A stretch of 40,003 nucleotides of DNA, taken from contig JACMKY010000379.1 of assembly GCA_014379925.1 (NCBI GenBank), positions 1 through 40,003 on the forward strand, written 5' to 3'. Source of the DNA: Cytophagales bacterium (GTDB taxonomy: Bacteria; Bacteroidota; Bacteroidia; Cytophagales; ES-bin-26). Shown piece after piece: positions 8,354 through 33,055 of this stretch. The translations under genes were made by a program, and so were the position numbers. Within the stretch, counting starts at the first letter, position 1; each line of letters starts with the position of its first letter. The notes under the pieces are model-generated. The model saw only the letters and a program-made list of their open reading frames with translations, did no database searches and was not told where the DNA came from.

Positions 8354-8446
8354 TTTTCCACAAACGTCCGCGTTAATTGGGCAAATATTGTGGATAACCT
8401 TGTGGATAACTGGTAGAACGGCTTCTTTGGGGCCTACTTATCCACA
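8354..8446. promoter_or_regulatory. Cluster of DnaA-box-like 9-mers in a divergent intergenic region
   Basis: Exact TTATCCACA (either strand): 8389-8397 (TGTGGATAA), 8401-8409 (TGTGGATAA), 8438-8446 (TTATCCACA). 8/9 match TTTTCCACA at 8354-8362. A-rich tract follows at about 8460-8485. Confidence 0.6.
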
Positions 8447-16968: not shown

Positions 16969-17439
16969 TTACCCTACGGCGTTGTTTTCTTCCAACGTTA
17001 ATCTCTCTTCCACGACCAGACTCTCTACCACCCGGTTTATGTCCCCAATCACCTCGAAGAACACCGTCAGCTTCTCGATGGAAATATGCTGCAGCACTTG
17101 TTGATTGAACTCAATCACGGTCCGCCGGGCTATCTCGCGCTGGAACCTTCCTTTGTCCGTCAGGTGGATATTGACGAACCGTTTGTCGTGTTCACTTCCG
17201 GATCGGTTGATCCAGCCTTTTTCCTCCAGACTCTTCAGCATTCGGGTCAGGCTGCGGGGTTCAAGCCCCAGCGTAGGGGCGATTTTAGTGGCGGGCGTGC
17301 CTTTTTCCAAGTCAATGTTGAGCAATACGTAGCCAATCGACATCGTCATATCGTGCTTTGCCGCCTTGGCGTTGTACATCCGGGAAATTGCCAGCCAGCC
17401 GGACTTGAGGTGGAAATCGACGGTTTGGTGCGCTTTCAA
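16969..17439 (-). CDS. MarR family transcriptional regulator (start revised to a TTG at 17439)
   Basis: Winged-helix core TPATKIAPTLGLEPRSLTRMLKSLEEKGWINRSGSEHDKRFVNIHLTDKG. The sequence homologous to known proteins appears to start at (M)KAHQTVDFHLKSGWLAISRMYN. The track ORF extends to 17493. Confidence 0.85.
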   Translation of the reverse strand: MKAHQTVDFHLKSGWLAISRMYNAKAAKHDMTMSIGYVLLNIDLEKGTPATKIAPTLGLEPRSLTRMLKSLEEKGWINRSGSEHDKRFVNIHLTDKGRFQREIARRTVIEFNQQVLQHISIEKLTVFFEVIGDINRVVESLVVEERLTLEENNAVG

Positions 17440-17694
17440 TGAAGTTTTTTTAGTGAACCAAAGATACGACGTAGTAGTATGCAAGCATAACATTTATTGA
17501 AAATAATTTTCGCGACGAAAGTCCTACACAAAAAATATTGGACACAAAACAGGCTCCGAAACACGATCCGAAAGCCTTTTTGGGGGGTTATTGTCGAATT
17601 TTGTATTATTTCAAGGCGTATTTTTCGATCTTTTTGGACGATTGTACTTTTCAGGGTGAGGATTTTGAACCGAGGTAGTCAGGTTTGGTGCAAG

Positions 17695-17724
17695 AAAAAA
17701 GCCTCCCTTGAACGGAGAGGCTTT
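17695..17724. terminator. Intrinsic terminator between the acyl-CoA ligase 3' end and the marR upstream region
   Basis: AAAAAAGCCTC...GAGGCTTT stem with flanking A/T tract. Overlaps the region just 3' of the minus-strand ligase gene (ends 17729). Confidence 0.75.
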
Positions 17725-17728
17725 GACG

Positions 17729-19534
17729 TTAGGTGTACATTTGGTCAATCTGGTCTTTGTACTTGGCGTAGATGATTTTTCGCTTCAACTTGAGGGTTGG
17801 GGTAAGCTCACCGCCTTCGACGCCCCAAAGATTGGGCAGCAGGGCAAATCTTTTCACCCGCTCGTACTGGGCGAAATGTTCATTTAACGAGTTTAATTCC
17901 TTTTGAAATTCGTCCACAACATCCGATTTGGTAACCATGTCGGCATCGGAGGTATAGGTCAATCCCTGGGTTTTTGCCCACTCCCGCAAAGCGGGGAAGG
18001 AAGGCACCAACAGTACGGAGGGAAATCGCTGTCCGTCGCCCACCACCATGGCTTGTTCAATCAAAATTGATTCCTTCAATTTGTTTTCAATGAGTTGAGG
18101 AGCAATGTATTTACCACCCGACGTTTTGAACATTTCTTTTTTACGGTCGGTAATTTTCAGGAATTGACCCTCTACCATCTCCCCGATGTCGCCGGTGTGG
18201 AACCAGCCTTCCTCATCCATCACTTCGGCGGTCAGTTGGGGTTTTTTGTAGTACCCTTTCATTACATTCGGGCCCTTTACCAGGATTTCACCGTCGTCCG
18301 CAATCTTTACTTGCACACCACTGATTACTTTTCCCACGCACCCGATTCGCATGTTTCCGGGTTCAATGCGACTGGTTGAAACAACCGGCGAGGTTTCGGT
18401 CAATCCGTATCCCTCCGCTACCGGGATGCCGGCGGCCCAAAATACCCGCGTCAGCCGGGATTGCAATGCGGCAGCCCCCGAACTGATCAGCGTGATGTTT
18501 CCGCCCAAGGCTTCGCGCCATTTGTTAAAAATTAATCTATTCGCTAATTTCAGTTGGGCGTTGTACCACGGTCCTTGGTCTTGGTTCGGGTCGTACTTCA
18601 ACCCAAGGTCCAGTGCCCAGAAAAACAACCTTTTCTTTACGCCCGTCAATTCGTATCCTTTGTTTACAATCTTGTCGTACACTTTTTCCAGCAGACGCGG
18701 CACGGTTGTAAACACGTTCGGTTTCACCTCCTTCAGGTTGTCCCCAATGGTCTCGAGACTTTCCGCGTAATACACCGAAATGCCGGACCGCAAGTACAAA
18801 TAAATGCACATTCTCTCGTAGATGTGGCACATGGGCAGAAAACTGAGCGCCCGACCCGTGTGATCAACGGGTACGTTTGGAACCGATGCTTCCACATTGC
18901 TCATTAAATTGCCGTGGGTAAGCATTACTCCCTTGGGGTTTCCCGTGGTCCCGGACGTGTAAATCAAGGTGAGCAAATCTTCGGGACTCACTCCGGCTTT
19001 GTGCGATTCCAGCAGCGCTTGCGACCCGTCTTTTTCCAGGTCCCAAACTTCCGTCCATTGTTTGGCACCGGTTACCCGGTCAAACGTATAGACTTCCTGA
19101 ATGCCGGTTAGGTTCTTGGTGGCGCTTCGTACCCGGTTGTACAAGTTTTCATCGGCAACAAAAACCAATTTCACCTCGGCATCCGAAAAAATGTACCGGT
19201 AGTCTTCTTCCGTGATGTTGGGATACATTGGCACGCTCACCGCGCCCAGTTGCTGAATGCCGAAATCGACGAAATTCCATTCAGGTCGGTTAGGCGAGAT
19301 AACCGCAATTTTGTCCCCTTTCCCGATTCCCAGCTTTATTAATCCAAGGCTAACTTTATTTGCTTGATTAAGAACGTCTTGCGAGCTGTATTTAACCCAT
19401 TGTCCGTTTACTTTGTTGGCCAGGGCATCTTCCTTGTTGAATTTCTCTACGTGCCAGAGCATCAAATCAAAAACCCGGGTGAGTTCTTGCGTCACTTTTT
19501 TCGTTGGTTTTTGCGTGACAATGGGGGTTTCCAT
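17729..19534 (-). CDS. Long-chain fatty acid-CoA ligase (AMP-binding)
   Basis: 601 aa. LIYTSGTTGNPKGVMLTHGN, EGYGLTETSPVVS, GWFHTGDIGEMVEGQFLKITDRKKEMFKTSGGKYIAPQLIENKL. Confidence 0.95.
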   Translation of the reverse strand: METPIVTQKPTKKVTQELTRVFDLMLWHVEKFNKEDALANKVNGQWVKYSSQDVLNQANKVSLGLIKLGIGKGDKIAVISPNRPEWNFVDFGIQQLGAVSVPMYPNITEEDYRYIFSDAEVKLVFVADENLYNRVRSATKNLTGIQEVYTFDRVTGAKQWTEVWDLEKDGSQALLESHKAGVSPEDLLTLIYTSGTTGNPKGVMLTHGNLMSNVEASVPNVPVDHTGRALSFLPMCHIYERMCIYLYLRSGISVYYAESLETIGDNLKEVKPNVFTTVPRLLEKVYDKIVNKGYELTGVKKRLFFWALDLGLKYDPNQDQGPWYNAQLKLANRLIFNKWREALGGNITLISSGAAALQSRLTRVFWAAGIPVAEGYGLTETSPVVSTSRIEPGNMRIGCVGKVISGVQVKIADDGEILVKGPNVMKGYYKKPQLTAEVMDEEGWFHTGDIGEMVEGQFLKITDRKKEMFKTSGGKYIAPQLIENKLKESILIEQAMVVGDGQRFPSVLLVPSFPALREWAKTQGLTYTSDADMVTKSDVVDEFQKELNSLNEHFAQYERVKRFALLPNLWGVEGGELTPTLKLKRKIIYAKYKDQIDQMYT

Positions 19535-19568
19535 AGTGAAGTGCTTGGTTTTCGGTTCAACTGACGGG

Positions 19569-21464
19569 TCAATTTGGAAAATCTTTCCGTAAAAACCGAA
19601 ACCGTTTCCTGGCTTCGGCGGTGAAAATGCTTCCGGGGTAATTTTTGAGGTGCTCCTGGTACAGTTCCATTGCCTTTTCTTTTTGATCCAATTTCTCTTC
19701 CAGGATCTTGGCCATCAGAAAGTGGGCATCATCACTGAGAATATCGTATTTGTACTCCTTCACGATCTTCTCTAAGTTGTTGAAAGCCTTTTGGTTCTCG
19801 TTCAATTTCAAGTACACGTTTGCCTGCAGCCACAGGATTTCGTCTGCTAAGCTATGGTCTTTGTACCTGGTCTGCATTTGATTCAACCGGTTCATTACTT
19901 CTTCGTATTGATTCTGAAAGACCAGCAGCTCCACGGAGGCGTATTCTCGCATGGCCGTTTCCGTGCTATCCAATCCGGTATTGTCCTGAATGAGCAGGCT
20001 CAAGTCCATGGCATCGTTGGCAATCTCCCGCGAAGTGGCCATCTTCAATACGTCCAAGTGTTCTTGCGCCAACGCAAACTCTCCTTTGAAATACGAAAGC
20101 TTGGCATTTTTCAATTTTGCTTCGTAGCCGATGGGTTGCTCTTTTTCCGCTTTTTCGACTTGCGCGTACAGCAGGGCCGATTCCCACGGTTCGTTCTTAA
20201 GCAGGTAAATATCGCCCAAATCCATTTTGCAACGATCCACAAAGTTCCGGTCGTTCGGCGCAATCCGGATGGCTTGTTCCAGAATGGTCACCGCGGTGTC
20301 TTTTTCATTCAAGTAAAAAGCGTGAAGCAGGGCCATGTTCCGTAAACCTTCCATCGTTTTATAGTTTCTCCCCAACTCATCGAATAACTTCTGATAGTCG
20401 ACGATCAACGAACGGATCTCCGGGGGATTGACTGGATAGGTGTTCTTGACCAGTTCTTCCTTGGCTTGAACCAAGTAGCGGCGCATGACCGGGTAGTTGG
20501 GACTCTTCGTGTATTCACGCGTCAAGTACTCAAAAATCTGTTCCGCACTTTTATAATCTGTGTTCTGAATGCTGATCATACCAATTTCCATCAGCTTAGA
20601 CCCTTCTAATTTATAGCGTTTGTCGGTGGAACGGGCTTGCACGAACGCCCGGTAAAAATCCTTTTGTTGAATGTAGTGCCAGATTAACAAATCACTGTAC
20701 AAGGATTGGTTTGGGTATTTCTGCACCCTTTCAATCAGGATTTTCTTTAGCAGATCGAAATCCTCTGCCTTTACCAGTTCGTCCTGCAATGAGTTTTGAA
20801 TAAATTCCTCGCTATTTTTTACCGTCAATCCCAGATTGAGGTATTCCTCGATCATTTTTTCCTTCTGGCCAGCTATTTTATACAAGCCGGCCAGTTGATA
20901 CGCGTATTCACTCGGATTCTTGGCGTTTTTCCGGCCTGCTAGGTAGGCTTCCTCGGCCCTGGGCAATTTATCCGCTTCGATGAAATACTGTGCCAGGCTA
21001 TTCAGCTGGGTCGGGTCGCTTTTAACCGCATCAATGGTTTGTTCGTACTGTTTTCGAGCCTCCGAATCTTTCCCTTGCTTCTCCAGTAAAAGTCCGTATT
21101 CTGCCTTGTACAAAGGTTCACCCGCGTTGTTCTTGATCAGACGGCGGAGAAATTTTTCGGCTTCGCTGTATTCATTCAATTGAGCCAGCGTCACAACGTA
21201 CTTTTTGTATACCTGCTTTGCCACGTTTTCGTTTTTGGCCAGTTTTTGGTAGATCGTCCGGGCTTTTTCGTAATCACCCTTCTGAAAATACTCGTTTGCT
21301 AATTCGGAATCCTGCCCTTTGACCTGCCCGAACGTGGCAAGCACTCCCAGTGCCAAGGGAACAAGAAATGAGTGGCGTAAAAACCGGTGGTTACCTTTAA
21401 GAGCGAGCTTTGCTTTTTTCGGGATGCGTTGCGTATTGTTCTCCATTGGTTTCATTGGTTTCAA
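19569..21464 (-). CDS. Tetratricopeptide repeat protein
   Basis: 631 aa. Signal peptide followed by repeated TPR-like helices (ANEYFQKGDYEKARTIYQKLAKN, SEAEKFLRRLIKNNAGEPLYKAEYGLLLEKQGK..., KAFNNLEKIVKEYKYDILSDDAHFLMAKILEE). Confidence 0.85.
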   Translation of the reverse strand: MKPMKPMENNTQRIPKKAKLALKGNHRFLRHSFLVPLALGVLATFGQVKGQDSELANEYFQKGDYEKARTIYQKLAKNENVAKQVYKKYVVTLAQLNEYSEAEKFLRRLIKNNAGEPLYKAEYGLLLEKQGKDSEARKQYEQTIDAVKSDPTQLNSLAQYFIEADKLPRAEEAYLAGRKNAKNPSEYAYQLAGLYKIAGQKEKMIEEYLNLGLTVKNSEEFIQNSLQDELVKAEDFDLLKKILIERVQKYPNQSLYSDLLIWHYIQQKDFYRAFVQARSTDKRYKLEGSKLMEIGMISIQNTDYKSAEQIFEYLTREYTKSPNYPVMRRYLVQAKEELVKNTYPVNPPEIRSLIVDYQKLFDELGRNYKTMEGLRNMALLHAFYLNEKDTAVTILEQAIRIAPNDRNFVDRCKMDLGDIYLLKNEPWESALLYAQVEKAEKEQPIGYEAKLKNAKLSYFKGEFALAQEHLDVLKMATSREIANDAMDLSLLIQDNTGLDSTETAMREYASVELLVFQNQYEEVMNRLNQMQTRYKDHSLADEILWLQANVYLKLNENQKAFNNLEKIVKEYKYDILSDDAHFLMAKILEEKLDQKEKAMELYQEHLKNYPGSIFTAEARKRFRFLRKDFPN

Positions 21465-21512
21465 GAAGCTGGGTACCCAAGTTACGTAATTATTCCTTTG
21501 GCTTTTTTTCCA

Positions 21513-21912
21513 TTATACACCCTCTTGCTTTTTTTCAAAGAAAATTCATTATAACTATTAGGCGTGTGGAAAAGTGGAAAACCCGAAGGTGTGTTTTCTT
21601 CACCAAGATTTTTTGTGGATAACACGGATGGTTATCCACCAACACATCCACTGGCTACTGCTTTTTAATGAGTGGATTAGTCGTTTATCCACCCGCAACT
21701 GATAAAATGAAGAGTAGGTGCCTTTGTGGATAAGATTTTTAAATCAGCTGTGGACAATTGTGTGCGTTTGCGGTGTAAAACGGTCCCCTTGTGCACAGAC
21801 GTTTTGGGTGTACGCTATCAAGGGGAGTTTGGTTTCAGTTGTGAACATATCCATTGACCTTTTTCCCTTGTTATACACCCGTTAAGCAATTGTATCCACA
21901 GGTTTATCCACA
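21513..21912. promoter_or_regulatory. Candidate replication-origin-like DnaA-box cluster
   Basis: Exact TTATCCACA/TGTGGATAA: 21614-21622, 21725-21733, 21904-21912. One mismatch to TTATNCACA: 21513-21521 (TTATACACC), 21565-21573 (TGTGGAAAA), 21632-21640 and 21685-21693 (TTATCCACC), 21749-21757 (TGTGGACAA), 21789-21797 (TTGTGCACA), 21871-21879 (TTATACACC), 21892-21900 (GTATCCACA). AT-rich cactttttattaaacaaaactaatttt follows the last box. Confidence 0.6.
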
Positions 21913-22196
21913 CTTTTTATTAAACAAAACTAATTTTGGATTGACCCGAAATCAGATGCTTCCAGGTAAAAAGTACGCGTATCAACCCCAGTTTGGTCAA
22001 TAATTAGGGAAGGCCTGTTGGGTAGGAGTTGCCAGCAGTATGGACAGCGCGAAAGTGCGCGCAGATGGAAGTACCAAAAGAGTAGAAATTACGGAAGTAG
22101 TGCTTTAACCAACCAAGATTAGCGATTACGGTTGCTAAAAATCCCGATAATCAACTTATTTCTGCTGCGGGCTATCGATCATTGGCTGTTTACCAG

Positions 22197-23855
22197 CTAT
22201 TGCAGTGTAACGTTGATTTCCTGTAGCTCCCAATTCTGCTTCAGCTTAATCACCTGCTGGTTGTCTTTCTTGCTATTGTCGGAGAATAACACGATTTTTT
22301 CGGGTAGCTCACCCGCCTCAATGTCCCCGCTGTCCCACTTGCCGTTTTTATTGTCATCACTGATAACGCGGATGAGGTAATCACCCGCGTTCAAAAAGTC
22401 GAATTGATAGGTCTTGGTATCTCGTTTCTGAGCCACTGATTTAAAGTCGACGGTGAGCAATTCAATGATAAATGACGCTGCCGCCGTGGTGATGCTCCCT
22501 CCAATGCTTCCATAATTCTCCAGTTCCTTAATTTTGTGATTGGTTTTTATTACTTGGCTGGTATCATTTTCAATGGAGAGAAAAGTGCCCTTTGGAATTT
22601 CCACCCTGATTTCTCTTTTCGCATTGACTTTCGCCTTGACCGTTAAAAGTGTTTTGTACGCATCCCATTGGTAATTCTCTTCGGTAAGGGGAACCAAGCT
22701 AATTGTATCCGCCAGAATTCGGATACCTTTGGGTTCGGACGAACGAATTGGCTTGCTGAATCTGATTGCAAATACCAAGTCTTTTTCTACTTCTTCCCCA
22801 TCTTTGGGTGTAGTACCGACCGACCAGCTGTTAGCGACCTTTGGTTCATTTCTTCCTTTCCTATCCGGGGCGCTTTTTTCCGGCGCAAACTTGATCTTTA
22901 CGGTGTCCTGGTAAGAATTTCCCGCCGAATCCAACGCCGTAATCTGCACCGGAATGCTGTCGTTCGCTGAAACTCCTTTAAAGAACACGATCTTCTTCTC
23001 GCCTTCCCGCATGTAGGGGATTGATTGGTAATCATTCGGCAGCGTTACTTTCGCCTCAACCAATCCTTCGTCAAATTCAAGGGTGTATTTATTTTCGCTT
23101 GCGCTCGCATTGTCAACCTTGGGAGGACGCTTGTCGATTTTTACTAAATTCAATTGCACGTTTGAAGCGCTTCCTTTTTCTAAATTTATCGGCTCCGTTG
23201 CGAAGGCTACTTTTTCAGTTGCTTGGTCGTAGGTAAGGTTGCCATTTTTGTCTTCTACCGCGTATACCCGATAACTGCCGTTTCTGATGTTTTCCAGTGA
23301 AAAATTGCCGGCACTATCGGTTCGCGTCGAATAATAAGGTTTATCCTTAAAAACCGTGGCCGTATCGTTGGTTTGGTAAAGCGACACGACTGCGTTCAGT
23401 ACGCCATTTCCGCGCAACGGATCTCTCACGTTTCCGGCAATAAGTAGTGAGTCAATTACCTTGCCCGTGCTAAAAACTATTTTGACGTCGCGAGCAATAT
23501 TTTTTTCCGCCAAGTCCACGAATGCATTGCGAAAATTGAGGGTGTACGTTGTATTGTCCTGAAAAGGCTGGTCAAAGGTTAACTTGATGCCCGTTTTAGT
23601 GAGCTTAGATTGGTAATCGCCCTTCGTACTGGGCGTAATTAACAGTTCCTGCTTCAGGTTTTCCACCCGAATCAGCTCATCGAATTCCAATTCTATTTCC
23701 TGGTTTTTGTATTGAGTGCTCTTGGATTCGGGCGTACTTCTGATTAGGACGGGAGGGGTTGCGTCTTTTTCTCCACCCGTAGGAACGGAGGGACTAGCGC
23801 AACGAAGCAAAAAAAGCGCGATCAAAAAAAGAAAGCAGACGAAAATTAATTTCAT
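22197..23855 (-). CDS. Ig-like (SbsA/Big_5-type) domain-containing lipoprotein
   Basis: 552 aa. Lipobox FLLRCASPSVPTGGEKDATPPVLIRSTPES; IELEFDELIRVENLKQELLITPS; TYTLNFRNAFVDLAEKN; a pattern common in Bacteroidota. Confidence 0.8.
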   Translation of the reverse strand: MKLIFVCFLFLIALFLLRCASPSVPTGGEKDATPPVLIRSTPESKSTQYKNQEIELEFDELIRVENLKQELLITPSTKGDYQSKLTKTGIKLTFDQPFQDNTTYTLNFRNAFVDLAEKNIARDVKIVFSTGKVIDSLLIAGNVRDPLRGNGVLNAVVSLYQTNDTATVFKDKPYYSTRTDSAGNFSLENIRNGSYRVYAVEDKNGNLTYDQATEKVAFATEPINLEKGSASNVQLNLVKIDKRPPKVDNASASENKYTLEFDEGLVEAKVTLPNDYQSIPYMREGEKKIVFFKGVSANDSIPVQITALDSAGNSYQDTVKIKFAPEKSAPDRKGRNEPKVANSWSVGTTPKDGEEVEKDLVFAIRFSKPIRSSEPKGIRILADTISLVPLTEENYQWDAYKTLLTVKAKVNAKREIRVEIPKGTFLSIENDTSQVIKTNHKIKELENYGSIGGSITTAAASFIIELLTVDFKSVAQKRDTKTYQFDFLNAGDYLIRVISDDNKNGKWDSGDIEAGELPEKIVLFSDNSKKDNQQVIKLKQNWELQEINVTLQ

Positions 23856-23880
23856 TGGTCGACTGGAAAAGAGCCGGTTT

Positions 23881-24771
23881 TCAGGCTTTCGATTTGATTA
23901 AGTAGATCAAGCTCGAATAGTTATTTCCATTTTCCTCCGCCCACTGGTTGGAAGCCCTTCCATTCCGAAAAGCCTGCCAATAATCAGTCTTTCCATCCCG
24001 GTATCGGCTGCTCAACAGACTGATGTAGTACGCGTCCAATTCCATTGGAATAATCTTCTGTATGATCAACCGATGTTTCAAAAAGAGCGCGCGGACTGTA
24101 TCGGGAGAGAAATGATAAAGATGACGGGGTACGTCGTAGGCGGCCCATTTTTCACGGTATAGCTTGGCATCGTAGGATTCACAGTTGGGTACTGCGACCA
24201 GCAATGTACCGTTTGATGTGAGCAGTTTTTTCAGTTTTTTCACACTTTCATCCAACTGGTGAATGTGCTCGAGTACGTGCCACAACGTAATTGTTTCGAA
24301 TGTTTCACCGGGGAAAGCACTCAGTAAGTTTTCCTCAACCTGAGACTTGACGCGGGTATGGGCTAAGCCACGCGCCTTTGCGTCCGGTTCGGTCCCATTT
24401 ACGTTCCATCCTGACTTTTGGCATACCTCCAAAAACGTGCCCGTACCACATCCCACGTCCAACAAGCGCTTTTTCTCGCTCCCCAGTGAGTTGATCAGTT
24501 TTAATTTCTTTTGCAGGGTAAACTTCCTGGCAAAATGATACAGTTGATTGACGATTCCTCGTGTCGTATTGCTGTGGGAAATGTACGCCTCTGATTGGTA
24601 ATACCGACCCGCATTTTCTTGCGTCGGTCTGGGATTCGTCAATTTGAAACGACACTTTTTACACTCTACGATCGCGAAACTTTCCTGAGTTACGGTGTAA
24701 TCCTGGCAAATCATCAGGTTAGTAAACTGGTCACTTCCACAAATGGGGCAATTGCCTATTCTTTCGTACAT
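23881..24771 (-). CDS. Class I SAM-dependent methyltransferase with N-terminal zinc-ribbon-like motif
   Basis: 296 aa. N-terminal CPICGS...CKKC; LLDVGCGTGTFLEVCQKSGWNVNGTEPD; TITLWHVLEHIHQLDESVKKLKKLL. Confidence 0.88.
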   Translation of the reverse strand: MYERIGNCPICGSDQFTNLMICQDYTVTQESFAIVECKKCRFKLTNPRPTQENAGRYYQSEAYISHSNTTRGIVNQLYHFARKFTLQKKLKLINSLGSEKKRLLDVGCGTGTFLEVCQKSGWNVNGTEPDAKARGLAHTRVKSQVEENLLSAFPGETFETITLWHVLEHIHQLDESVKKLKKLLTSNGTLLVAVPNCESYDAKLYREKWAAYDVPRHLYHFSPDTVRALFLKHRLIIQKIIPMELDAYYISLLSSRYRDGKTDYWQAFRNGRASNQWAEENGNNYSSLIYLIKSKA

Positions 24772-24825
24772 TCAGTCGGGTGTGCGCGTTAAATTACGTT
24801 GCCTTTTTTTCGAATTTTTTGTTTT

Positions 24826-26694
24826 TCATCTGCCCACGTACACCATCAAAATCGACAAGTCAGAAGATGACACACCGCTGATTCTTGACGCCTGACCAAT
24901 GGTAAGGGGCTTTATTTTTTTTAATTTTTCCCGGCCTTCGTTCGACATGGCCAAGAGCGCATCGTAGTTGAGATCGGGCCCAATTCGGTAGTCTTCCAAT
25001 TCAATTAATCGCTCGGCGCTTTTCAATTCTTTGTCCAGGTAACTTTCGTACTTCACCCCAATTTCTGCCTGTTCCACTACGTCAGCTTCAAAACTGGAAA
25101 CATCCATCGCCAGGGGACAAACCGATTGTAGTCCCTGGATGGTAATTTCGGGCCTTTTCAACAAGGAGTGAAGCGCTATCTTCTCCCTTACCGGAGCCGT
25201 ACCGAGTTGCTCCAGACCTGGATTAATTACTTCCGGATTTACCTTCGTGCTTTTTAACAGTTGAATTAGCCGGGCCGTTTCTTCTTTTTTCTTCTTTACT
25301 TTTTCGAAACGATCTTCCGAGGCCAGACCCAAACGAAAACTTTTCTCGGTTAGCCGGATGTCGGCGTTGTCCTGACGGAGCAAGGTGCGGTATTCGGCTC
25401 GGGATGTGAACATGCGATAAGGTTCATCCGTACCCTTGTTAATTAAGTCGTCAATGAGTACCCCGATGTAGGCCTCCGACCGGTTTAAAACCAACTGCTC
25501 CAGGTCATTTATACTTTGATGCGCATTAATTCCGGCCATTAAGCCTTGACAGGCCGCTTCTTCGTATCCCGTGGTTCCATTGATTTGTCCGGCGAAAAAA
25601 AGATTCTTGACCCTTTTGGTTTCGAGGGTATTTTTCAACTGGGTGGGTGGGAAATAGTCGTATTCAATGGCGTACCCTGGTCGGAACATTTTTACCCGTT
25701 CAAACCCCGGAATCTTGATCAATGCGTTGTACTGCACTTCTTCGGGCAAGGAAGTTGAAAAGCCATTCACGTATACTTCCACGGTATCCCACCCCTCGGG
25801 CTCGACGAAGATCTGGTGCCGGTCTTTGTCGGCGAACCGGTTGATCTTGTCTTCTACTGATGGGCAATACCGGGGGCCCAAGCCCTTGATGCGACCCGTA
25901 AACATCGGTGACTTATTGAAACCCGTGCGCAACACCTCGTGAACTACCTGATTGGTGTAGGTAATGAAACAGCTCTTTTGCTCGGCAAGGAGTGGGGTAT
26001 CGGTATAGGAAAATTTACCCGGGTTTGCATCGCCCGGTTGCTCTTCCATGGCTTCGTAATTTAAACTGCGGCCGTCCACGCGCGGTGGAGTCCCCGTTTT
26101 CATTCTACCGGCCTCGAAACCCAACCCAATGAGCTGCTCAGTGATTCCCGATGCGGCTTTCTCCGCCACTCTCCCCCCCCCGAAGCTCTTGTCTCCAATG
26201 TGAATTAGGCCGTTAAGAAAGGTGCCATTCGTCAAAACGACGGTTTTTGCTTCAATTTGAATACCCAGTGCAGTCCGGACCCCCATCACCACGTCACCGC
26301 TAATCACCAGTTCCGTTACGGTGTCCTGCCAAAAATCCACGTTGTTTATTTTTTCCAACGCCAGCCGCCATTCCGTAGCAAATTTCAGCCGGTCACTTTG
26401 ACACCGCGGGCTCCACATCGCGGGCCCTTTCGAGCGGTTCAGCATTCTGAATTGAATCATCGATTTGTCGCTGATGATTCCCGACAGACCTCCCAGCGCA
26501 TCGATCTCCCTCACAATTTGACCTTTGGCAACGCCGCCCATCGCGGGATTGCACGACATCTGGGCAATGTTTTGCATATTCATTGTGATCAGCAAAACCT
26601 TCGAGCCTAGGTTGGCCGCACTCGCTGCCGCCTCGCACCCCGCGTGACCAGCCCCGACCACTATTGTATCGTACTTGGGAAACATATCTTTCAT
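24826..26694 (-). CDS. mnmG: tRNA uridine-5-carboxymethylaminomethyl(34) synthesis enzyme MnmG (GidA)
   Basis: 622 aa. YDTIVVGAGHAGCEAAASAANLGSKVLLITMNMQNIAQMSCNPAMGGVAKGQIVREIDALGG; GRMKTGTPPRVDGRSLNY; FFAGQINGTTGYEEAACQGLMAGINA; MFTSRAEYRTLLRQDNADIRLT. Confidence 0.97.
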   Translation of the reverse strand: MKDMFPKYDTIVVGAGHAGCEAAASAANLGSKVLLITMNMQNIAQMSCNPAMGGVAKGQIVREIDALGGLSGIISDKSMIQFRMLNRSKGPAMWSPRCQSDRLKFATEWRLALEKINNVDFWQDTVTELVISGDVVMGVRTALGIQIEAKTVVLTNGTFLNGLIHIGDKSFGGGRVAEKAASGITEQLIGLGFEAGRMKTGTPPRVDGRSLNYEAMEEQPGDANPGKFSYTDTPLLAEQKSCFITYTNQVVHEVLRTGFNKSPMFTGRIKGLGPRYCPSVEDKINRFADKDRHQIFVEPEGWDTVEVYVNGFSTSLPEEVQYNALIKIPGFERVKMFRPGYAIEYDYFPPTQLKNTLETKRVKNLFFAGQINGTTGYEEAACQGLMAGINAHQSINDLEQLVLNRSEAYIGVLIDDLINKGTDEPYRMFTSRAEYRTLLRQDNADIRLTEKSFRLGLASEDRFEKVKKKKEETARLIQLLKSTKVNPEVINPGLEQLGTAPVREKIALHSLLKRPEITIQGLQSVCPLAMDVSSFEADVVEQAEIGVKYESYLDKELKSAERLIELEDYRIGPDLNYDALLAMSNEGREKLKKIKPLTIGQASRISGVSSSDLSILMVYVGR

Positions 26695-26720
26695 ACTATC
26701 AATTGGTATTTTCTTGGTAA

Positions 26721-26771
26721 TGTTCCACGTGGAAACATTTCAATTTCTTCCGTTTGTTTCCACGTGGAACG
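26721..26771. promoter_or_regulatory. Pair of inverted parS-like palindromes upstream of mnmG
   Basis: TGTTCCACGTGGAAACA (26721-26737) and TGTTTCCACGTGGAACG (26755-26771). The 16-mers GTTCCACGTGGAAACA and TGTTTCCACGTGGAAC are exact reverse complements. Each core TTCCACGTGGAA is palindromic and resembles the ParB site consensus TGTTNCACGTGAAACA. Confidence 0.6.
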
Positions 26772-26795
26772 TTTTTTGAATACATTCAACAACAA

Positions 26796-27221
26796 TTAAG
26801 CAACGAAGAAACGAAGATAACTATTCTCTTTCTGGCGCATAATTTTAATTTGATCACGGGTCGAATCTTGGTAGCCCAATAGATGGAGCACGCCGTGAAT
26901 CAGTACCCGGACCAACTCTGACTCAAAATCAACCCGGAAATCAGTTGCGTTTTCCCGCACCCGGTCAATGCTAATAAAAATATCCCCGTCAATGGTGAGC
27001 GGGGATGTAGCATTGTCAAAAGTGATAACGTCGGTCAAATAATCGTGTTCAAGGTAATCAATGTTCAACTTGAGTAGGTACGCATCAGAACCGAATACGT
27101 AATTCAAATGGGCGAGTTGAAAATGCTCGAGCGTGACAATTTCAGCTAAACGCTGGCGAATCCAGGCTTCGTTTTCGAGAGTGAAATCAGTATCAACCGA
27201 AAAAAAAGCAATGCTGCCCAT
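26796..27221 (-). CDS. ybeY: Endoribonuclease YbeY (rRNA maturation factor)
   Basis: 141 aa. LTDVITFDN...GDIFISIDRVRENA...ELVRVLIHGVLHLLGYQD, with the HGxLHLLGYxH-like metal-site motif. Confidence 0.93.
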   Translation of the reverse strand: MGSIAFFSVDTDFTLENEAWIRQRLAEIVTLEHFQLAHLNYVFGSDAYLLKLNIDYLEHDYLTDVITFDNATSPLTIDGDIFISIDRVRENATDFRVDFESELVRVLIHGVLHLLGYQDSTRDQIKIMRQKENSYLRFFVA

Positions 27222-27623
27222 TTAGTTGAAGTAAAAAATTAACTCCACGCAGCGACCATCATTTTTAAAATGAACTTCGTCGGATAGGTGACGCATCAAA
27301 AATATTCCTCGGCCACCAATCCGGTCAATGTTCTCCGGGGCGGTAGGGTCTTGCAAATTGTTGTAATCGAATCCTTCGCCTTCGTCCTCAACCACGAAGG
27401 AAATGGAATTTTCCCGCAAGAAAAGAGAGAGGTTGACATTCTTCGCCTTGTCTTCTTTGTTGCCGTGTTTTACTGCGTTGTTCACCGATTCCGTTACGGC
27501 AATCATGATGTTGCCGTAAATGTCGTCTTCAATGTTAAACCGATCCTTGGCATTGTCAATGAAGCTCTCAACGATTCGTATGTTTTCGATGAGAGAAGGA
27601 ATCTGTATTCTAAGAGATTTCAT
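27222..27623 (-). CDS. ATP-binding protein, HATPase_c_2 / anti-sigma regulatory factor-like
   Basis: MKSLRIQIPSLIENIRIVESFIDNA...IMIAVTESVNNAVKHGNKEDKAKNV...VVEDEGEGFDYNNLQDPT...GRGIFLMRHLSDEV. The start at 27623 avoids overlap with the DUF4175 gene. Confidence 0.9.
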   Translation of the reverse strand: MKSLRIQIPSLIENIRIVESFIDNAKDRFNIEDDIYGNIMIAVTESVNNAVKHGNKEDKAKNVNLSLFLRENSISFVVEDEGEGFDYNNLQDPTAPENIDRIGGRGIFLMRHLSDEVHFKNDGRCVELIFYFN

Positions 27624-27636
27624 GAGAAAAAGCGAA

Positions 27637-30600
27637 TTATTTGGTAAGGCGAATCTTGTTGAAATATTTATCAACTTCTTTTTTATAATAAGGAGACAAG
27701 GACGGTGGAACCGTTTTGAGAAGCTCAATCTGCTTTTGTTTGGTGAGAATATACTCCTCGAATTGGGGCGGGGCTACCTTCTGTTTTTCCTTGGCCGCTT
27801 CCGCTTTCCGCTTATCGTCTTCGTCCCGCTCACGCAACGCTTTTTCCGATTCCAGCAGCCGGGTAAGAATGTCCCGCTGCCGGTTGATCATATTCTGAGT
27901 CAACTTTTTGTTCACCAATTCTTTTTCCGTTTCTTCCATTTGTTTGGCCAATTCTTTGACCTGATCACCCATCCCCTCCGTACCCGGTTTTCCCTTCTGG
28001 GCGTTTTCTAACTCTTTCAACGCTTTTCGAATCATTTCCTGTTCCATCGCCAAGCGTGATAGCTCTTCGGATAATTGACGACCGGCTTTGTTGCCTTGTT
28101 GCAACTGCTGAATTTGCTCGTTCAATTTCTTCTGTAGCTCGCCGAGCCCCGGAGATTGGGGCTTTCCTTTCTTCTTGCTTTTTCCGCTCGAAGGCTGGGC
28201 GTTGGCCATCTGCTCCTGCATTTGCTTGAGTACGTCGTTCAACATTAACGCCAGGTTGTTGAGGGAAGTCATCGTAAATTGCTGCTTTCCCGTGGCCGTA
28301 TTGATGCGACGCTGCTTGATGGCTTCCACACTTTGGTCCATGTACTGGTTCATTGCACCAACCTCCCGCGTAACGAAAGATTCAATCTGAAAGACGCGCT
28401 TGGCCAAGGCATTTAAACTGTCTTCTACGATTTTGGCGTCATCTTTCAGTTTAAGCTGCTGTTGTGAAAGCTTGATGAATCTAGGGTCGGATTGGCTTAC
28501 CTCCCGAAAATCCTTCATCAACTTTTCCTGGTCGAATGAAAGAGTCAGTAAATTTTCAAGAATATCGCGCAGGTCATCCATGTTTTCCTGCATCTGCTGC
28601 ATTTCTTCGCCTGCTTGCATCTCACTTAGCTTGTCAGCCATCTCATTCATCTTTTTTGCCGCCTTCTTCTGAGAGTCGGAAGCCTTGCGATTCTGTTTTT
28701 GTTGCAACTGCTCCAGGCTTTTCTGCTGTTCCTCCGAAATATCTTCTTGCTGCTCTTGCGTATCGCCCATCTCCTGGGGATTTTCCAACTCTTCGTTCAT
28801 CTTTTCCAGTTCTTTCAATTCCTCCTTGGTTTGTTCAAACTCCTCGTTCAACTTCTGTTGCTGATCCTCCAAGGCCGGCTTGTCCTGGTTCTTGTCGAGT
28901 GACTTCTCCGAAAGTTCCTGCTGTTTTTTGGCTTCTTCTTTCAAGTCCTGGGCAATATCTTCCGCTTTTTGATCAAGCTGTAGTTGTTTGAACATCTCCA
29001 AGGCGCGTTCCAACTCCTTCTTCAGGTTGTTTTCCTTTTTGTCGATCTTATCGAGGAGATCCAAAACATCCGCGTTGGTACGGTTCTGCTCGAGCAACTT
29101 CTGCAATTCCTCATAGAGCTTCTTGGTTTCTTCATCGAGCAACTCGTTCATCAGCTTGTTGAGTTGCTCGGCTTTTTCCGCTAGCTCCTGGCTTTGCTCG
29201 TTGAATTTTTGCTGTTTCTCTTGAATCGACTCGCTTTCCTTCCGAATGGATTCAATTTCTTTCATTAGTTCCTCCCTTTTCTTCAACAGGTCTTCTGCCA
29301 GCTTCTTGTCCTGGAAGTCCATGGATTTCTTGTTCTTGAGCCGGTTCTCCAAGCTTTTCATATCCTTCTTGAGCTTCTGAACTTCATTGATGGTACTGCT
29401 CAACCGGCTCTCCGTTTTCTCGGCCGAACTTTTCAGGGCGTTTTCCATCTCCTGTTCGGAAGGAATGTTGAATTCCATCGGTTGGGTTTTGGCGCTCTTG
29501 CTTCCGTTTACGCCGTCATTGTCCCACACTTGAACGTAGTACTGGAGTTTGTCCCCTGCTTTCAGGGACAAGCTGTCTAGCCTTAGCTGATGGTAAAAGT
29601 TTTGAATGGGCTGTTTGCGATCGAATGCCAGGTTCTTGGTTGCGTAAGAAGGGGGCTTGCTTCCTTCGCGTACCGCCCGGTAGAAGACCTTGAGTTGGGA
29701 AATGCCGTAGTCATCCATTACATTTCCTCCCAACACCAAATAGTTAAAAAGCGCAGTGTCTTGGTAATGTTCCAAAGAAACCTGCGGAAACTTGTCGGGG
29801 ACGACGCTCACGTAATAACTGATTTTGTCACGATTGCGGCTGGCTCGGTTTTTCAAGTGAACTTGATAATTTTCCGACTTCTTCATCCGCTTGCTGAATT
29901 CGAAAGAATTGTTCGGTTTCTTGTCCGCTGCCAATGGGGAGCTCTCTTCAAAGCCGACGAAAAGGCTGTCCGTTCCGCTCGCATTGAATTCCCACCGAAC
30001 CACCGTGCCGTCGGGCACTACCAGGTTGCCCACGTTGGTTAAGGTCTCATCCGTTTTGTTGAGATAAGAAGGATAGGACAAAGAAGCGTTGAAAAATTTG
30101 AGGTTGGGTCGCTCGATCACGTTGACGTTATAGTCGGTTGAGCGGAATCCAGCCGCTTCGAAATAAAAAGAAAAAGCTTTTTGGACCCGACTGAAGCTGT
30201 GGGCAAAACGCTGGGCATCGGCGCTTTCCATGCGGTGTCTCCTACCGTTAGACACCAGGTAAACGGACTCGGGTACTGCTTCGCCCGAAAGCGAAAGCGT
30301 AATTGGAAAGTCTTCGTCTTTGAATGCCGTGAGCGATTGATTGGCCAGTGAAAACCGGAACGGCGCCGGTTCGGCGTATTCATTTTTGAAATTAACGATG
30401 CGAGCCGAACTCTCGGCGAAAAAACGGGGATAGAAAAGCAAAATGGATACGATCAGGACGGCAGGAAAGAAAATATACTTCAGGTACTTGTTGTTTTCCC
30501 GTACATCAATGGCGTCGGTGAAGCGGACTACGCTGAGTTGCTGGGTTTTTTGTTCGATGCTGGCTTGGAGCAATTCACTCTGTTCGTAGCTCAACGCGCT

Positions 30601-30981
30601 CAATTGAAGCGTATTCAGCAATTTGTCGTTGATGCTGGTGAAGTGATTTCCAATTTGACGAGCCGCTTCTTCATTGCTGATCTGTCGCTTGAGGCTGTAT
30701 AACCGGGCGATTGGGTTAATCAGCCAATAAGCCAAGGAAGTGAGTACGATGGAAACAAAAGCAAAAAAAAGAATGGCCCGTACAACGGGATTGAATCGGC
30801 CGAAGTATTCCAGGGTATTGATCAATAGAAAAGCACCCAGCAGAAGGGCCAGAAAGAAAATAGAACCCCGGAGCAGCTGGTTGCCGTAGTATTTCTTTTT
30901 ATACGTGTGCAACTTCTCAAACAGGGTATTGCGAATCGGCTGGGGAGAAATTGCTCCCGTGGATGAGCGGTTGAGTTCCAT
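27637..30981 (-). CDS. DUF4175-like large membrane/coiled-coil protein
   Basis: 1114 aa. N-terminal TM segments (LLRGSIFFLALLLGAFLLINTLEY, VVRAILFFAFVSIVLTSLAYWLI), then a very long Glu/Lys/Gln-rich coiled-coil region. Confidence 0.8.
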   Translation of the reverse strand: MELNRSSTGAISPQPIRNTLFEKLHTYKKKYYGNQLLRGSIFFLALLLGAFLLINTLEYFGRFNPVVRAILFFAFVSIVLTSLAYWLINPIARLYSLKRQISNEEAARQIGNHFTSINDKLLNTLQLSALSYEQSELLQASIEQKTQQLSVVRFTDAIDVRENNKYLKYIFFPAVLIVSILLFYPRFFAESSARIVNFKNEYAEPAPFRFSLANQSLTAFKDEDFPITLSLSGEAVPESVYLVSNGRRHRMESADAQRFAHSFSRVQKAFSFYFEAAGFRSTDYNVNVIERPNLKFFNASLSYPSYLNKTDETLTNVGNLVVPDGTVVRWEFNASGTDSLFVGFEESSPLAADKKPNNSFEFSKRMKKSENYQVHLKNRASRNRDKISYYVSVVPDKFPQVSLEHYQDTALFNYLVLGGNVMDDYGISQLKVFYRAVREGSKPPSYATKNLAFDRKQPIQNFYHQLRLDSLSLKAGDKLQYYVQVWDNDGVNGSKSAKTQPMEFNIPSEQEMENALKSSAEKTESRLSSTINEVQKLKKDMKSLENRLKNKKSMDFQDKKLAEDLLKKREELMKEIESIRKESESIQEKQQKFNEQSQELAEKAEQLNKLMNELLDEETKKLYEELQKLLEQNRTNADVLDLLDKIDKKENNLKKELERALEMFKQLQLDQKAEDIAQDLKEEAKKQQELSEKSLDKNQDKPALEDQQQKLNEEFEQTKEELKELEKMNEELENPQEMGDTQEQQEDISEEQQKSLEQLQQKQNRKASDSQKKAAKKMNEMADKLSEMQAGEEMQQMQENMDDLRDILENLLTLSFDQEKLMKDFREVSQSDPRFIKLSQQQLKLKDDAKIVEDSLNALAKRVFQIESFVTREVGAMNQYMDQSVEAIKQRRINTATGKQQFTMTSLNNLALMLNDVLKQMQEQMANAQPSSGKSKKKGKPQSPGLGELQKKLNEQIQQLQQGNKAGRQLSEELSRLAMEQEMIRKALKELENAQKGKPGTEGMGDQVKELAKQMEETEKELVNKKLTQNMINRQRDILTRLLESEKALRERDEDDKRKAEAAKEKQKVAPPQFEEYILTKQKQIELLKTVPPSLSPYYKKEVDKYFNKIRLTK

Positions 30982-31089
30982 ACGGTAAAGAAAATAGGTG
31001 ATTTCTAAGAAAACGATTAGCTTGGTCTCAATCCGTCATCGTTCATTCCACCGGATACAATTATCCGAAAAAACAATTCGGACAATCTT

Positions 31090-32853
31090 TCAAGACCCTT
31101 GTTTGTTCCCGTCGGCGGGTCGCTCCAAGTATACTTCACTCAAATCCCGGTACTGCATCGGGTTATTGGGAAAGTTTTTTACGTACGATTGAATCAACCG
31201 GTATCCTTCGTCGTACCAGAGCACCAAAACGGGGGCATCATTCATTAAAATCTGCTCCGCCTGGATGAAATACCGGTTTGCCTCCTCCACGGATCTGGCA
31301 CTGAGGGCAGCTTCGTATAAACGATCGAACTTGGCATTCTTGTACCGCGCAATGTTTGGATACGATGGGTCATTCAAGGAAGCGGGTACTTGCTTTCCGT
31401 AAAATAACCAAAGAAAGTTTTCCGGGCTGGGATAATCGGCGGACCAGGCGGCGCGAAGCAATTGAAATTTTCCGGCAATGGCCTTGTCAACGGTTTGTGC
31501 CAACGGCTGGACGTTGATGGATACCTCTACGTTTAAGTTGTCTTTCAGTTGCTTTTGCACTTCAATGGCCACGTTGGTATTTCGTGAGCCTTCGGCATTG
31601 AGGTCCAGTACGATTTTGGGAAAGCCCTTCCCGTTGGGAAAGCCCGCCTTCGCCAGGTGGTACCGAGCCGAATCGACGTTCAATTCGTATCCCTTCAGGG
31701 CATTGATATTGTAATCGACGAAACTGGGTGGGGTAATGCCGTGAAAACCGGGGGCAAATCCCTCTCCGTTCAATACATTCTCCAGGATTTTCTGCCGGTC
31801 CACGGCGTAAGAAAACGCCTTGCGCACGTGGGCTTCCTTGAAAACGGATCCTTGGTTGAAAAAGGTCAGAAACTGGGTAATCATTTCGGGAGCGCGTTGC
31901 AATTCAAACTGGCTGTACTCGCCCTTTTCCGAACTTCCTACCTGCTCCAAAATCTCAATGATAAAATCGGTGGGAAGCCGGTATACCATATCCAGTTCCC
32001 CTTTCCTGAATTCGAATAACTCCGTCTTTTTGTCTTTGATGAACTTGATGCTTATGGCATCCAGAAAAGGCAGCCGGTTGCCGAGCGAATCCACCCCGTG
32101 GTAGTTGTCGTGCCGCTTTAAAACGAGAGAAACGTCGTCGTCCACGCTGCTTATGCGGAAGGGACCAGTTCCGACAGTTTTGATCCGCATTTCCTGCCCG
32201 TACTTTTCGTAGGCTTCCCTCGGATAAAGAAACGTAGCCGGACGGGCAAGGTTGTAGATCAGAATGGAATTGGGCTTTTCCAAGGTCAACTGCACAGTAT
32301 ACGCATCGAGTACGTTGATTCCCTCAACCTCGAAGCCAGGTTTACCCCCACCGGCCGTAGCCTCGTAGTAGCGGTCAGCACCCTTCAGAATGCCTTTGAA
32401 AATGGAAAATTGCTGGTTGGAGGCCCGTTGGGTACACAGTTGGGTAAAGCAGTACTTTACGTCTTCCGCTTTCAATTCCCTCCCCTTGCCTTCGGGGAAG
32501 CAGGGATCATCATGAAAGTAAACGCCCTTTTTAATCTTGAACGTATAGACGGTTCGGGATGCATCAACGGTATAATTTTCGGCCAAGCAATTGATTACTT
32601 TCAAGTCGGATTGATTGAACTTGAGCAGGCCCTCGTAAACCTGGGTAGCGACGCGGTAAGAAAAGGCATCGGTGATACTCGGTGGAAAAAGGTTTTTAAT
32701 GTACTCGGATTCGTTAAGACGGAACACCCCCCCGTAAGTGCGGCCGCCTTTGGCTTCCTTAGGCTGCTGCGAAGCTTCCGTACTGGGATTGGAAGGATTA
32801 CAGGCGCTGAAAAATAACAACAGACACGAAATACAGACGGGGAGTCTCTTCAT
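31090..32853 (-). CDS. ABC transporter substrate-binding lipoprotein (SBP family 5, peptide type)
   Basis: 587 aa. Lipobox LLLFFSACNPSNP; YTFKIKKGVYFHDDPCFPEGKGRELKAEDVKYCF; HVRKAFSYAVDRQKI; WSADYPSPENFLWLFYG. Confidence 0.9.
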   Translation of the reverse strand: MKRLPVCISCLLLFFSACNPSNPSTEASQQPKEAKGGRTYGGVFRLNESEYIKNLFPPSITDAFSYRVATQVYEGLLKFNQSDLKVINCLAENYTVDASRTVYTFKIKKGVYFHDDPCFPEGKGRELKAEDVKYCFTQLCTQRASNQQFSIFKGILKGADRYYEATAGGGKPGFEVEGINVLDAYTVQLTLEKPNSILIYNLARPATFLYPREAYEKYGQEMRIKTVGTGPFRISSVDDDVSLVLKRHDNYHGVDSLGNRLPFLDAISIKFIKDKKTELFEFRKGELDMVYRLPTDFIIEILEQVGSSEKGEYSQFELQRAPEMITQFLTFFNQGSVFKEAHVRKAFSYAVDRQKILENVLNGEGFAPGFHGITPPSFVDYNINALKGYELNVDSARYHLAKAGFPNGKGFPKIVLDLNAEGSRNTNVAIEVQKQLKDNLNVEVSINVQPLAQTVDKAIAGKFQLLRAAWSADYPSPENFLWLFYGKQVPASLNDPSYPNIARYKNAKFDRLYEAALSARSVEEANRYFIQAEQILMNDAPVLVLWYDEGYRLIQSYVKNFPNNPMQYRDLSEVYLERPADGNKQGS

Positions 32854-33055
32854 GGTAAGGATTCAATATTTTTGAGATAAAATTAATCAATATAATCTAC
32901 GAAACAAAGCTGAACCACGACGGGTAATGTTCCAGTTCGGGTGAATCATTTCGGAAAACGCCGAAAACGGATGTTGCCCGGTGCGAATCAATCCTTCCAT
33001 TCAACCCGTTTTGCAACGTAGAAAAGTCGATGAACTTACGCCGTTGGACCGGCCC

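Follow-up and report, generated by a model that had tools for sequence, protein, structure and literature searches.

Is a dense cluster of DnaA boxes in a non-coding gap the place where a chromosome starts to replicate, or a site that binds DnaA for another purpose? This question is raised by a stretch of 40,003 nucleotides from a Cytophagales bacterium (contig JACMKY010000379.1 of assembly GCA_014379925.1, positions 1 to 40,003), hereafter called the window. A preliminary description of the window left the choice between a chromosomal origin (oriC) and a datA-like titration site. On the basis of its place, its box spacing, a box/trio module and a GC-skew switch in relatives, we consider the gap at 21465-22196 to be very probably oriC (a probability of about 0.92), so that the first half of that choice is retained and the datA-like half is not needed.

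The DnaA-Box Array

The gap contains three exact copies of the box TTATCCACA, at 21614-21622 and 21725-21733 on the minus strand and at 21904-21912 on the plus strand, and five copies with one mismatch, at 21565 (-), 21632 (+), 21685 (+), 21749 (-) and 21892 (+). An additional box, TTATACACC, is one mismatch away from the looser sequence TTATNCACA. The exact copies in both orientations and the gap of about 730 bp had been described correctly, but the "about eight" one-mismatch copies reported with them were an overcount. Eight boxes with at most one mismatch within 348 bp compare with a mean of 0.26 and a largest count of 3 in 2000 dinucleotide shuffles of the gap, and the three exact boxes compare with 0.01 expected from such shuffles. 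Exact boxes are scarce throughout the draft assembly (5,434,435 bases in 717 contigs): there are only 13, six of which form two clusters within the window (8389-8446 and 21614-21912), while the other seven occur one each, isolated, on other contigs. The non-coding DnaA-box cluster expected of an oriC is present in the gap. The elements of the locus are collected in Table 1.

Table 1. Positions of the features discussed, in window coordinates.
Feature	Position	Strand	Description and basis
TPR protein gene	19569-21464	-	Flank on the unwinding side; Pfam TPR families; syntenic
Intergenic gap	21465-22196		About 730 bp, between TPR gene and Ig-like/DUF2141 gene; ORF map, and same flanking pair in most Cytophagales loci
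AT-rich stretch	21510-21546	-	Proposed DNA-unwinding element; adjoins trios, after which the strand reads AATTTTCTTTGAAAAAAAGC
DnaA-trio run	21547-21561	-	CTA ATA GTT ATA ATG (other strand 3'-GAT TAT CAA TAT TAC-5'); alignment and published trio definition (PMC8287927, PMC8235120)
Spacer CGC	21564-21562	-	3 nt, separates box pair from trios
Two abutting DnaA boxes	21565-21581	-	TTTTCCACTTTTCCACA; 8-bp step, one-base overlap; aligned and kept in relatives
DnaA-box array	21565-21912		Three exact and five one-mismatch TTATCCACA, both orientations, plus TTATACACC at 21871-21879
Tandem box pair	21892-21912	+	GTATCCACAGGTTTATCCACA; 12-bp step; a third box, 21 bp away, at 21871-21879
AT-rich spacer, then ATTGACC	21913-21946	+	Spacer of about 26 bp; unwinding element proposed in the preliminary description; side-by-side comparison
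Ig-like (Big_5)/DUF2141 protein gene	22197-23855	-	Other flank; Pfam; syntenic
mnmG/gidA	24826-26694	-	Origin neighbor; Pfam GIDA E=6.7e-160; query of the comparative search
Second DnaA-box cluster	8354-8446		Three exact and one one-mismatch box; flanked by a DUF4142 gene and an M24 peptidase gene in divergent orientation

Conserved Place in the Genome

On the minus strand the gene order is ybeY, mnmG, a methyltransferase gene, the Ig-like/DUF2141 gene, the gap, the TPR gene, and then genes for an acyl-CoA ligase, a MarR regulator and fatty-acid functions. The mapping of mnmG bears out its reported distance of about 2.9 kb from the cluster. The encoded MnmG has its closest counterparts in Cytophagales, Runella and Dyadobacter among them (71-73%), in agreement with the assignment of the window to that order. 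The relatives compared, which were sampled in 20-kb pieces, belong to other families of the order, and a box cluster is found in the orthologous gap of Runella, Dyadobacter, Algoriphagus, Roseivirga, Aquirufa and other Cytophagales, usually 1.7-2.7 kb past mnmG; in some families among the relatives compared, there is no box cluster at mnmG. Both the position and the box spacing are thus conserved in relatives, as expected of an oriC.

What, then, of the divergent gene layout and the dnaA gene, the absence of which had been held against an origin? Wherever both flanking genes were detected they are co-directional, so that a non-divergent layout is usual in the order, as is a dnaA gene that is not next door, and this caveat falls away. 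Searches with TIGR00362 and PF00308 find no dnaA in the window's assembly, which is 94% complete. The gene is present in all 38 relatives of the order (38/38), and its absence is probably an assembly gap.

The Proposed Unwinding Module on the TPR Side

Alignment of the homologous gaps revealed a composite module, which on the minus strand from 21581 consists of TTTTCCACTTTTCCACA, CGC, five trios and then AATTTTCTTTGAAAAAAAGC. In the published definition, the DnaA-trio reads 3'-GAT-5' and its central A is conserved; the complementary strand then reads 5'-CTA-3' (PMC8235120). A BUS (DnaA-box plus DnaA-trio unwinding module), by the published rule for finding one, needs three or more NAN trios no further than 16 bp from a DnaA box that has at most two mismatches, a second box being optional (PMC8287927). 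When applied to the window, this rule picks out TTTTCCACA (one mismatch), the 3-nt spacer and five trios, the first of them 3'-GAT-5'. All five triplets have a central T as listed in Table 1, and the first is the perfect one. The 34 bases downstream of the trios are 76% A+T in the window and 74-97% across 28 module-bearing loci, so that an AT-rich stretch of the kind expected of an unwinding element lies beside the boxes.

Of 29 homologous gaps, 25 carry the whole arrangement of box pair, spacer, trios and AT-rich DNA; shuffles yield 0.07 on average, and the opposite strand yields one. Its consensus over 28 loci is TTATCCACA-TATCCACA, 3-4 nt and CTAATA. The later trios are degenerate and, in several relatives, discontinuous; judged from the alignment, the firm part of the module is the box pair with the first two trios. 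With up to three mismatches allowed, the consensus has a single match in a scan of the window's whole genome, at 21555-21581. Whole-genome scans of relatives place a match near mnmG in eight of them and elsewhere in a few others, the consensus having been built partly from loci that were also scanned, so that the scan tests uniqueness more than discovery. In the complete relative G010, the best match (G010:C1:1528019-1528045) has one mismatch and lies 220 kb from mnmG; the origin of G010 may be elsewhere.

The Ig-Like Side of the Array

The opposite end of the array has its own, more narrowly kept arrangement. The 12/21-bp spacing of its three boxes is identical in the window and in three relatives of other families (G004, G023 and G029), where a similar AT-rich spacer is followed by ATAGACC at a nearly equal distance from the tandem pair. 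The expectation that box spacing would be conserved in related genomes is borne out here as well as by the shared trio module. The 12-bp pair geometry occurs twice in the genome of the organism itself, both times inside the window. The AT-rich stretch that had been proposed as the unwinding element does exist next to the terminal box (21913-21937), but a better candidate is found at the other end of the array, at 21581-21510 on the minus strand, and the element at 21913-21946 is kept more narrowly than the module at 21510-21581. It may be an anchoring array or an additional site of opening. The 12/21-bp box triple was also considered as the origin core and rejected: it is restricted to a few families, and the trio module at the TPR end is more widely shared.

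GC Skew

Does the strand composition switch at the locus? The cumulative GC skew of the complete 7.03-Mb relative G029, computed from 41 sampled stretches, reaches its minimum at 6.63 Mb, within 10 kb of the orthologous cluster at about 6.624 Mb. Adjacent 20-kb samples at the cluster differ in sign, with a skew of -0.065 in the first and +0.018 in the next. The third-position skew of same-strand genes has a mean of -0.13 before the cluster and +0.12 after it, and 21 of the 22 loci show a rise (Wilcoxon p = 1e-6). Three genomes are without a clear switch: G004 (8.98 Mb) has positive skew beyond the cluster, about 1 Mb of mixed skew before it and a computed minimum at about 2.57 Mb, 1.1 Mb from the cluster, and G010 and G036 have mixed, rearranged or noisy skew with no clear pattern.

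The sole exception among the 22 loci is the window, with third-position skews of -0.015 and -0.019. Its cumulative skew at four-fold sites, where the skew is weak and the sites are few, has its minimum near 27 kb (z 3.7), with a far smaller step (z 1.4) at 21.75 kb. The main weakness of the oriC reading is that the window's own skew has no switch at the cluster and, weak as it is, does not decide the question in either direction.

Two further observations concern base composition. The minimum at about 27000 falls between mnmG and ybeY, some 5 kb away from the box cluster. The G+C content is 43-51% at about 17000-33000 and mostly 50-60% on either side, this low stretch being centered roughly on the putative origin region.

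The Second Cluster in the Window

Within 58 bp the second cluster packs three exact boxes, two of them in 12-bp tandem; it lies 13 kb from the gap, on the side of the TPR gene. The box/trio module was not found in it. The idea that it accompanies M24 peptidase genes was abandoned, as no such cluster lies beside M24 homologues in 11 other genomes. No homologues of window genes lie near three other small box clusters in G004 and G023 (L091-L093) or near a box pair (L094). Our guess is that the second cluster is a titration or regulatory site. A two-part control region, in which the cluster at 8354-8446, with its matching 12-bp tandem geometry, would work with oriC at 21.5-21.9 kb from a distance, in loading or titration, is unlikely.

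Other Readings of the Gap

In E. coli, datA and DARS are not known to lie at the skew switch or to carry an unwinding module. Could the gap be such a site, titrating or inactivating DnaA (datA-like) or acting like DARS, and binding DnaA without starting replication? Dense boxes with no neighboring dnaA would fit, and the cluster at 8354-8446 shows that a box cluster in the window need not be an origin. A datA-like site should, however, lie away from the origin, and the orthologous locus in G029 sits at the skew switch of the whole chromosome, while the local skew flips in 21 of 22 loci; this location makes such a site very unlikely, and the conserved box-trio-AT arrangement is moreover that of an unwinding module. 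It is scarcely credible that the gap is a DnaA-regulated promoter region of the TPR gene with no origin function: the module does lie directly upstream of that gene and on its coding strand, but it persists in three loci (L024, L028 and L180) where an adjacent TPR gene is not detected, and the skew in G029 and in the 21 of 22 loci also speaks against it.

The lack of a skew flip at 21.7 kb in the window invites the thought that the origin has moved in this lineage to 8354-8446 or another place, leaving 21565-21912 as a relic or accessory array, and the three exact boxes of the second cluster, two in 12-bp tandem, would agree with it. A relic, however, should have lost the box pair, the CTAATA start and the five in-frame trios, all of which the window copy retains. 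The second cluster is without the box/trio module, and the nearest skew change in the window, at about 27 kb, is on the opposite side from it. A moved origin is thus highly improbable, and the gap is best read as oriC.

A Model of Origin Opening

The elements observed in the gap, the conservation of where they lie and how they are spaced, and the switch in skew at the orthologous locus of relatives allow a model of how this oriC might work, in which DnaA binding, melting and use as a start site in the organism itself are predicted from sequence. ATP-DnaA would fill the box array at 21565-21912. From the abutting boxes (21581-21565), a DnaA filament would extend onto the trios (21561-21547), with 3'-GAT TAT CAA TAT TAC-5' as the bound single strand. 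The AT-rich stretch at 21546-21510 would then melt toward the TPR gene, and the helicase would be loaded there.

Significance and Comparison with Known Systems

If the gap is oriC, Cytophagales would have a conserved and testable origin address, the Ig-like/DUF2141-TPR gap past mnmG, in an order whose oriC is not by dnaA. The compact consensus (TTATCCACA-TATCCACA, about 3 nt, CTAATA and AT-rich DNA) could serve for calling origins in fragmented metagenome assemblies, and such calls are needed for peak-to-trough estimates of growth rate. The DnaA-trio unwinding module would also be extended, by sequence, to Cytophagales. The literature searched contained nothing direct on an oriC adjoining mnmG in Cytophagales or Bacteroidetes.

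Several known systems resemble the locus in part. The datA and DARS sites of E. coli are likewise non-coding DnaA-box clusters (PMC4585315). The gammaproteobacterial oriC between gidA and mioC (E. coli; Y. pestis, PMC10225481) shares the mnmG/gidA neighbor and the E. coli-type box TTATCCACA, whereas the window has Ig-like/DUF2141 and TPR neighbors, two genes between mnmG and the gap, and a different array. The predicted oriCs of DoriC (PMC6323995) rest on the same kinds of evidence, namely boxes, skew, neighbor genes and trios. The BUS of Bacillus subtilis and Helicobacter pylori (PMC8287927, PMC8235120) has the same tandem boxes, short spacer, trios beginning with 3'-GAT-5' and AT-rich DNA, in the same order and polarity; in the window the boxes abut with an 8-bp step and a one-base overlap, and dnaA is not adjacent. 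The locus is, as an origin, of a well-known and ordinary kind, and what it adds, unless DoriC already lists this gap for complete relatives, is a new member together with an order-wide address and core.
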